From Oscillospiraceae bacterium (GTDB lineage Bacteria; Bacillota; Clostridia; Oscillospirales; Acutalibacteraceae): DNA of 64,000 nt. Shown piece after piece: positions 4,767-39,515 of the stretch (within the stretch, counting starts at the first letter, position 1; each line of letters opens with the position of its first letter). The notes beneath the pieces were generated by a model. It made no database searches. It saw only the letters and a program-made list of their open reading frames with translations, and was not told the origin of the DNA. The DNA lies in assembly GCA_015066405.1 (NCBI GenBank), contig SVOM01000001.1, positions 1-64,000 of the forward strand, in the 5' to 3' direction. The translations under genes were made by a program, and so were the position numbers.

Positions 4767-5376
4767 ATTTTTTACCGCAATTTTTATCAAAACTGGGGTT
4801 GCAGGCATAGAAGTTTTTGCTGTTTAGTTTATCGGTCGTAATACCGAGTGCCTCACCAAAACGCTGATAGTGAACTATTTCGCGTTGTCTAAGGAACTTA
4901 AGCGGGTCGCGTACATCAGGGTCGTCGATTAGTCGCAACAGGTTATCATAGGTTGTTCTTGCCTTTTGCTCGGCTGCCAAATCCTCGTGCAAATCGGTTA
5001 TAATATCGCCTTTTGCTTGGATATACTCGGCACGCCAGGGAAGGCCTGATGCGGCTATCGGGTACACACCTGCGGTGTGGTCGACAAAGTATTTATCAAA
5101 GCCCGATGCTACAATTTCCTTTTCGCTTAAATTTTTGGTTAGCTGATAAACCATAGCGCAAACCATCTCGAGATGGGCAAGCTCCTCGGTGCCGATATCG
5201 GTTAAGAGGCCCTTAACCTCGGCATAGGGCATTGAATAGCGCTGCGTTAAATATCGCATTGATGCGCCAAGCTCGCCATCGGGACCGCCGTACTGACTGA
5301 TGATTATTTGCGCGTATTTCGGGTTGGGGTTTTTGATGTTTACGGGGTATTGAAGTTTTTTAGTATATTGCCACAT
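4765..5376 (-). CDS. cotJC: CotJC-like manganese-catalase-family spore coat protein
   Basis: MWQYTKKLQYPVNIKNPNPKYAQIIISQYGGPDGELGASMRYLTQRY; EELAHLEMV and EIVHYQRFGEAL metal-binding helices. Confidence 0.9.
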   Translation of the reverse strand: MWQYTKKLQYPVNIKNPNPKYAQIIISQYGGPDGELGASMRYLTQRYSMPYAEVKGLLTDIGTEELAHLEMVCAMVYQLTKNLSEKEIVASGFDKYFVDHTAGVYPIAASGLPWRAEYIQAKGDIITDLHEDLAAEQKARTTYDNLLRLIDDPDVRDPLKFLRQREIVHYQRFGEALGITTDKLNSKNFYACNPSFDKNCGKK

Positions 5377-27458: not shown

Positions 27459-27665
27459 ATGAGATTGAAAGAAATAAGAAAATCGAAAGGCATTTCCCAG
27501 TTAAAGTTAGCATTAGATTTAAACACAAACCAAAACACCATAAGCCGATATGAAACGGGGGAACGTGAGCCCGGAATTACTGAGCTTATAAAAATAGCCG
27601 ATTATTTTAATGTTTCGGTGGACTATTTACTTGAGCGTACAAATAACCCTGATATAAAAAAATAA
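27459..27665 (+). CDS. XRE-family HTH transcriptional regulator
   Basis: MRLKEIRKSKGISQLKLALDLNTNQNTISRYETGEREPGITELIKIADYFNVSVDYLLER. Confidence 0.92.
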   Translation: MRLKEIRKSKGISQLKLALDLNTNQNTISRYETGEREPGITELIKIADYFNVSVDYLLERTNNPDIKK

Positions 27666-27687: not shown

Positions 27688-27718
27688 TATTATAAAATGG
27701 TGGAAAGCACAAGATTTT

Positions 27719-27891
27719 AGTGATATTCTGTGCTATGCACAGAGTGATATTATGCCTTTCGGCATAGTGATATTTCTGTTATGCAGAAGTGATATTATAT
27801 TCGCTCTTAAAACTTGCGAAGCGAATATCACTTGGACTTTAGTCCAAATATCATTGCGGAGCAATATCACTCGCCGAAGGCGAATATAACT
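27719..27891. repeat. Symmetric array: four AGTGATATT, a central hairpin, then four AATATCACT-like units; every unit separated by a different small palindrome
   Basis: AGTGATATT at 27719, 27743, 27766, 27788. AATATCACT at 27824 and 27863, AATATCATT at 27847, AATATAACT at 27883. Intervening hairpins: CTGTGC-TAT-GCACAG, ATGCC-TTTC-GGCAT, TCTG-TTATG-CAGA, ATTCGCT...AGCGAAT, TGGACT-TT-AGTCCA, TTGC-GGA-GCAA, TCGCC-GAA-GGCGA. Confidence 0.9.
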
Positions 27892-27892
27892 G

Positions 27893-27926
27893 AAAAACTC
27901 CTTGTTCTTTGGAACAAGGAGTTTTT
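27893..27926 (-). terminator. Terminator-like hairpin downstream of tRNA-Leu
   Basis: AAAAACTCCTTGTTC TTTG GAACAAGGAGTTTTT. Confidence 0.75.
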
Positions 27927-27927
27927 C

Positions 27928-28014
27928 TGGTGCCGCTGACCGGACTTGAACCGGTACGGTATTGCTACCGAGGGATTTTAAGTCCCTTGTGTCTGCCTAT
28001 TCCACCACAGCGGC
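27928..28014 (-). tRNA. tRNA-Leu (anticodon UAA), CCA encoded
   Basis: Minus strand GCCGCTGTGGTGGAATAGGCAGACACAAGGGACTTAAAATCCCTCGG...CCGGTTCAAGTCCGGTCAGCGGCACCA: anticodon loop CTTAAAA, long variable arm, T-loop GGTTCAAGTCC. Confidence 0.95.
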
Positions 28015-39349: not shown

Positions 39350-39415
39350 ACTAATCACCCTTTTAAAAAATATTATAGGACACACCTAACCTACCGTTTT
39401 TCACGGCGATTAAAT

Positions 39416-39494
39416 GTGCCCAGACGGTCGGCCTAAAAATATGAATTTCCTGTTCCATTGTGGTGCTCCACTTAATTTCCGTCAGTTACAGAAA
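39416..39494 (-). promoter_or_regulatory. ZTP (pfl-motif) riboswitch in purE leader
   Basis: Minus-strand RNA UUUCUGU-AACUGACGG-...-GUGGAGCACCAC-...-ACAGGAA...GGCCGACCGUCUGGGCAC: P1 (7 bp), P2 hairpin, terminal CCGUCUGGGCAC consensus, GACGG/CCGUC pseudoknot. Confidence 0.87.
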
Positions 39495-39515
39495 ACAAAC
39501 AATTTCGACAAATGA

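Follow-up and report, generated by a model that had tools for sequence, protein, structure and literature searches.

What is the short array of inverted repeats that lies between the gene for an XRE-type regulator and the 3′ end of a tRNA-Leu gene in the 64,000 nt stretch of Oscillospiraceae DNA analysed here (hereafter, the window)? A preliminary description had drawn it as four units on the left and four complementary ones on the right, separated by hairpins of unrelated sequence, capable of pairing into a ladder of stems and matching no named family. The parts that we distinguish, together with the neighbouring genes, are the following:

27459–27665, plus strand: gene for an XRE-type regulator (from the sequence), forming the host flank on the head side, outside the element.
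27719–27796, plus strand: head half, with four AGTGATATT units, starting at 27719, 27743, 27766 and 27788 (plus strand, from the sequence), and three hairpins between them, at 27728–27742, 27752–27765 and 27775–27787.
27797–27823, plus strand: centre, with ATATTCGC (27797–27804), a spacer and a short hairpin.
27824–27891, minus strand: tail half, with four complementary units (27824, exact; 27847, AATATCATT, one change; 27863, exact; 27883, AATATAACT, one change) and three hairpins between them (TGGACTTTAGTCCA, GCGGAGC and CGCCGAAGGCG).
27880–27887: tail end, GCGAATAT, covarying with the first base of the centre.
27892–27927, minus strand: right terminal hairpin, terminator-like, GAAAAACTCCTTGTTC...GAACAAGGAGTTTTTC, directly after the tRNA CCA.
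27928–28014, minus strand: tRNA-Leu(TAA) (ARAGORN and Rfam), which is the host target and has the element directly at its 3′ end.

The array at 27719–27891 is real, with two exact and two one-change units on its right side, ATTCGCT...AGCGAAT can be read in its centre, and its neighbours are, from the sequence and ARAGORN, those first described. The six spacers are self-complementary, as had been stated, although they span 7–15 nt rather than the quoted 11–15 nt, GCGGAGC at 27856 having only 7 nt. The 36-bp hairpin at 27892–27927, which fills the gap between array and tRNA, is also part of the feature. Allowing up to one mismatch, the window contains 37 unit matches versus 18.5 ± 4.1 in shuffled sequences, with none of 100 shuffles reaching as many. 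Compared with shuffles, the predicted RNA folding of positions 27700–27910 gave z = −6.8 (single strand), and that of positions 27719–27927 gave z = −11.5 both as DNA (plus strand) and as RNA (minus strand).

We consider it probable, with a rough probability of 0.75, that the array is a copy of a dispersed, horizontally shared, non-coding and non-autonomous mobile DNA element of gut Clostridia, which targets terminators and tRNA 3′ ends. The observations behind this reading are copies dispersed over the genomes, their positions in terminator loops or at tRNA ends, orthologous sites free of the array, sharing between families, and covariation of the hairpins.

A search of its own 1.56-Mb genome with a unit-gap-unit pattern produced 27 matches, versus none with the reversed control, and these collapse to ca. 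12 places with one common plan: units and perfect hairpins (head), NTATTCGC in the centre, a tail with shorter hairpins, and a terminal hairpin. The tail units drift to AATATAACT / AATARAACT. The exact pattern also occurs, very unevenly, in 22 of 98 relatives from the same order, the control giving no matches throughout, and more than 100 stretches were retrieved from the GTDB collection, nearly all of them from MAGs named Clostridia or Oscillospiraceae and mostly from herbivore hindgut. Arrays are therefore numerous in relatives, and the locus is not the isolated case that their absence from related genomes would have made it. A full copy is non-coding, spans ca. 310–410 bp and comprises, in this order, a left terminal region, often with a terminator-like hairpin of its own, a head of four units and three hairpins, the centre, a tail of three to four units with short hairpins, and the right terminal hairpin. 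Element types differ by their terminal hairpins; as judged by inspection, without statistical scoring, the left and right ends have the same core within a type, inverted relative to each other (e.g., GGTGATGTCCTTAGCGGAG / GGCGTGATACTCTTAACGGAG). In variant subfamilies the unit is swapped on both sides and the end type and the target are kept, and subfamilies with different units were found together in one genome. The preliminary description had envisaged a mechanism inserting single palindromes; the thing that moves appears instead to be the element in its entirety, in which hairpin slots, ends and target are fixed.

One locus (L315, contig C7 of genome G007, at ca. 15.5 kb) has both ends and the flanking terminator arms and is missing the array, being an internal deletion derivative. 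Clustered copies were seen at contig ends in genome G000 (contigs C10, C30, C57 and C65) and in several relatives, which would be expected if short-read assemblies break at near-identical copies.

Pairs of near-identical copies at unrelated loci, with identities of 95.8 % in genome G000 and ca. 94–96 % in G082, align over ca. 380 bp, extending past both sides of the array, and diverge sharply beyond. In many copies the flanks at this boundary correspond to the arms of one intrinsic terminator of the host, the element then lying inside the terminator loop; such flank pairs include AAAAGCTCCCCTT and AAGGGGAGCTTTT, AAACCCCCGAAGA and TCTTCGGGGGTTT, AAAAAAGCATCTGC and GCAGATGCTTTTTT, and ATAAAAAAACAACACCC and GGGTGTTGTTTTTTTAT, among others. 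The terminator stems differ between copies while the element is constant, indicating that they are part of the target. Among pairs of own flanks, 20 of 109 had an exact complement of at least 11 nt in common, versus three of 400 mismatched pairs (p ~1e-11). Many copies have no clear terminator stem in their flanks, perhaps because they are truncated or decayed. The site adjacent to folC, which is occupied by copy L180, contains an intact, uninterrupted terminator and no element in the same-genus genomes G003 and G002, which represent two sister species. We considered, and then dropped, the idea that the element has a fixed orientation with respect to the terminated gene, since the folC copy is reversed and many copies lie between convergent genes. 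Inspection revealed no target-site duplication of constant length, and a literature search for MITEs or IS elements inserting in terminator loops gave no relevant result.

Two genomes from different families (G001 and G079) share an array with 98.9 % identity over 175 bp, although the genomes analysed are mostly fragmented MAGs and binning errors could inflate apparent transfer. The plasmid collection did not match the array, and a scan of viral contigs with a loose pattern gave mostly chance matches and one array contig beside phage structural genes. In this IMG/VR contig (L072), the array occupies positions 1376–1558, with a fucosidase-like gene on one side and phage-like genes for capsid, protease and connector on the other, as at a prophage edge or in a phage vehicle for the element. 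The one match in a phage collection (L193; MT835815.1, "Bacteriophage sp."), with a partial array at 5074–5189, was discarded as apparently mislabelled: its ORFs resemble bacterial housekeeping genes, among them those for a release factor, a dephospho-CoA kinase and a glycogen branching enzyme.

Of the 144 distinct copies that could be parsed, 17, including that in the window, end exactly at the 3′ end of a tRNA, always with the tail first, and they involve nine isotypes (Leu, Thr, Tyr, Cys, Gln, Arg, Ser, His and Trp). These copies bring their own terminator hairpin: one hairpin sequence was found next to different tRNAs, each in another genome (L181, L187 and L307), and the hairpin therefore comes with the element. 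At the corresponding locus of the same-genus genome G001, the tRNA-Leu is followed by an ordinary terminator and the XRE gene, the array being absent, and tRNA-Leu is likewise followed by an ordinary terminator in G002, G003 and G007. The comparison with G001 shows that the array is absent from a sister genome, rather than in which direction the change went; since the terminator in G001 differs from the window hairpin, the window copy provides no evidence for insertion into a terminator loop. Many tRNA-associated copies (L409, L410, L413, L305 and L211) have a motif like a tRNA T-arm (GTTCGAA core) 25–75 bp outside the head. In some cases another terminator comes after this motif, so that the element looks as though it lay between remnants of a tRNA 3′ end. 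On the head side of several tRNA-associated copies (L181, L187, L201 and L307) there is also an outward-facing, TATAAT-like promoter.

The statement that the array belongs to no named family has to be abandoned, because both of its halves match the Gut-1 RNA (RF01706) over the full model length, with E ~7e-9: positions 27718–27800 on the plus strand with 47.8 bits, and 27820–27892 on the minus strand with 48.1 bits. An Rfam search at the gathering threshold left the array unmatched because these halves fall ca. 2 bits below the curated cut-off of 50 bits, and Gut-1 surfaced in a relaxed search. Sister copies of the same type in the same genome score above the cut-off (50.6–57.2 bits, the highest being L178 with 57.2 bits). 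Gut-1 matches were found in 44 of the 98 relatives, with up to 39 per genome, and, in a phylum-wide sample of 120 genomes searched with a stricter limit, only in the genome of the window and in one other. Gut-1 was catalogued in 2010 as a probable non-coding RNA on the basis of human gut metagenomes (Weinberg et al., 2010, PMC2864571), and is listed as an sRNA in Rfam; in the literature searched, which left out most subscription journals, RF01706 is mentioned only in that catalogue paper, and a search for the 9-mer as text gave no relevant match among the titles listed. Gut-1 and the array share three hairpins with a constant unit between them (GUGAAAU in the model, GUGAUAU here), and occur in the same bacterial order and the same genomes. 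The best Gut-1 loci, whose unit is GTGAAAT, likewise consist of two inverted halves, so that what the Rfam model describes is half of a symmetric element; additionally, 12 of 26 parsed Gut-1 arrays lie just 3′ of a tRNA. Gut-1 RNA is thus half of an element of this kind: whereas Rfam models it as an RNA standing on its own, from human gut samples, the element described here joins two inverted halves and differs further from Gut-1 as modelled in its terminal hairpins, its location at terminators or tRNA ends and its near lack of G-U pairs. What is new is the reinterpretation, which concerns the element as a whole, with both halves, together with its target and its signature at the level of DNA.

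The match with Gut-1 raises the alternative that the array is a functional non-coding RNA, as catalogued, whose hairpins would fold in a transcript reading through from the tRNA or starting at a promoter of its own. Both the Gut-1 listing and the very stable predicted fold agree with this, and so does the covariation of hairpin arms, which we examined in 82 complete copies with the same slots, using as a control the 3′ halves swapped between copies. In the head slots, own arms paired over 5.5, 4.7 and 5.0 bp versus 1.5, 1.0 and 2.0 bp after the swap, and in the first tail slot over 3.8 bp versus 1.2 bp; there is too little variation in the remaining two tail slots for them to be informative. 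The claim that hairpin sequences vary while their arms stay complementary is borne out. Likewise, the centre base and its partner at the tail end (NTATTCGC / GCGAATAN) occurred in three complementary states in 126 of the 130 copies with both letters (A:T, 44; T:A, 45; C:G, 37), with four mismatched. Nevertheless, only 13 of ca. 1330 stem pairs of the element are G-T (1 %), and Gut-1 proper, on its annotated strand, has no G-U among ca. 428 stem pairs, versus 55 G-U in 828 pairs (6.6 %) in tRNA stems from the same loci, a comparison in which the filters differ slightly between sets and the relatedness of the copies makes p-values optimistic. A selected RNA helix should tolerate G-U, which these stems do not show, suggesting that pairing is probably maintained at the level of DNA, and not of RNA, either through selection for hairpins that form in single-stranded or extruded DNA or because template switching corrects imperfect palindromes, two routes that these data do not separate. 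The scarcity of G-U argues against an RNA, although the array may be transcribed. Also difficult to reconcile with a functional RNA are the two inverted halves, which make both strands alike, the terminator between tRNA and array, and the patchy, multi-copy distribution with array-free sister loci, so that we regard this explanation as unlikely.

In the spacer stems of all copies, the rare cells that are not Watson-Crick pairs are lopsided by half, with A-C exceeding G-T by 22 to 10 on the AGTGATAT/GTGAAAT strand and, for Gut-1 proper, by 13 to 0 on the GTGAAAT strand, which could hint at the strand that folds.

Alternatively, the arrays might be DNA-structure sites useful to the host and spread by selection, in the manner of BIMEs, for the binding of a host protein or the relief of supercoiling. 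Their perfect hairpins and constant units resembling binding sites would suit such a role, as would their location at tRNA ends and at gene ends, since copies are mostly downstream of genes and a rough count of ORFs placed 57 of 91 copies between convergent ones. We consider this quite unlikely, because the element is absent from orthologous sites in same-genus genomes, many close relatives have no array at all, and subfamilies with different units coexist in one genome.

Finally, the ladder of left and right units pairing into stacked four-way junctions as the functional structure, which the preliminary description had proposed, is highly improbable, for although the units are nearly complementary, change together on both sides between subfamilies (which also fits one protein recognising one site) and show some left-right pairing in minimum-energy folds of the window copy, they do not covary within copies (7.945 of 9 positions paired with own partners versus 7.952 with those of other copies) and the drift of the tail to AATATAACT/AATARAACT while the head stays AGTGATATT creates systematic mismatches.

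For the mobile DNA element, a mobilising enzyme was sought among known families. Group IIC introns use intrinsic terminators as insertion landmarks, and REP, BIME and REPIN sequences are palindrome arrays at gene ends, probably mobile, with RAYT (Y1) transposases; the present element differs from the latter in its separators, which are a constant 9-mer, and in that the presence of Y1 is unlinked to that of arrays. Y1 transposases were found in 11 of 22 array-positive versus 35 of 76 array-negative genomes (p = 0.8) and in none of G000, G007 and G082, the last being the most loaded genome, which argues against a RAYT/REPIN or IS200/IS605-type system. Similarly, no DEDD transposase of the IS110/IS1111 type was detected in the five carrying genomes checked (G000, G007, G062, G070 and G082), and reverse transcriptases (RVT_1) gave no match in G000, G007 and G082. 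Y1, IS110 and reverse transcriptase were accordingly rejected as mobilisers by their absence from G000, G007 and G082. A group IIC intron was further set aside because the array has no Rfam intron match and insertion here is inside the loop, and a CRISPR array because the units are inverted at the centre and the spacers are self-complementary and reused between genomes. Searches with three end sequences identified no autonomous copy or parent transposon, and no homology of the array to a known IS or MITE end was found.

Among described repeats, SPRITE, RUP and BOX of Streptococcus pneumoniae are short, non-coding, dispersed repeats with strong stems, SPRITE being terminator-like and enriched between convergent genes, although a hairpin array with constant separators or insertion in terminator loops is not described for them, and no empty site was found for SPRITE by its authors (Croucher et al., 2011, PMC3049150). 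The element resembles MITEs (reviewed in PMC10969869) in being short, non-coding, intergenic and present in multiple copies at unrelated loci, with empty sites and, as judged by inspection, with ends related in inverted orientation. Its target, the terminator loop, and its internal array are unusual, and neither a parent transposon nor, by inspection, a constant target duplication was found.

A plausible mechanism would be that the hairpins act as DNA, single-stranded or extruded, and that a trans-acting recombinase recognises both the terminal hairpins and the repeated units, the constant 9-mers serving as sequence-specific recognition sites; alternatively, the arms might be evened out by template switching. 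Insertion into stop signals by an element carrying stop signals could be nearly harmless, which would explain the copy number. More tentatively, the copies may represent an element class that recognises intrinsic terminators and tRNA 3′ ends in general, through their structure and not their sequence, with an inverted pair of hairpin arrays as its own signal and an enzyme still to be found, in which case Gut-1 would be half of a mobile DNA and not an RNA.

This reading turns an orphan gut "RNA" of the catalogue into a testable hypothesis of a mobile element with defined ends, target and empty sites. The element also provides a marker for horizontal transfer between uncultured gut Clostridia and might account for breaks in assemblies, several copies being at contig ends; if its enzyme were found, a system inserting safely at terminators would be of practical use. 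Methodologically, a covariation test on its own can mistake an array of DNA palindromes for an RNA, and the G-U test helps to tell them apart. Elsewhere in the window, a ZMP/ZTP riboswitch aptamer matches RF01750 at 39411–39499 on the minus strand, with 58.4 bits.
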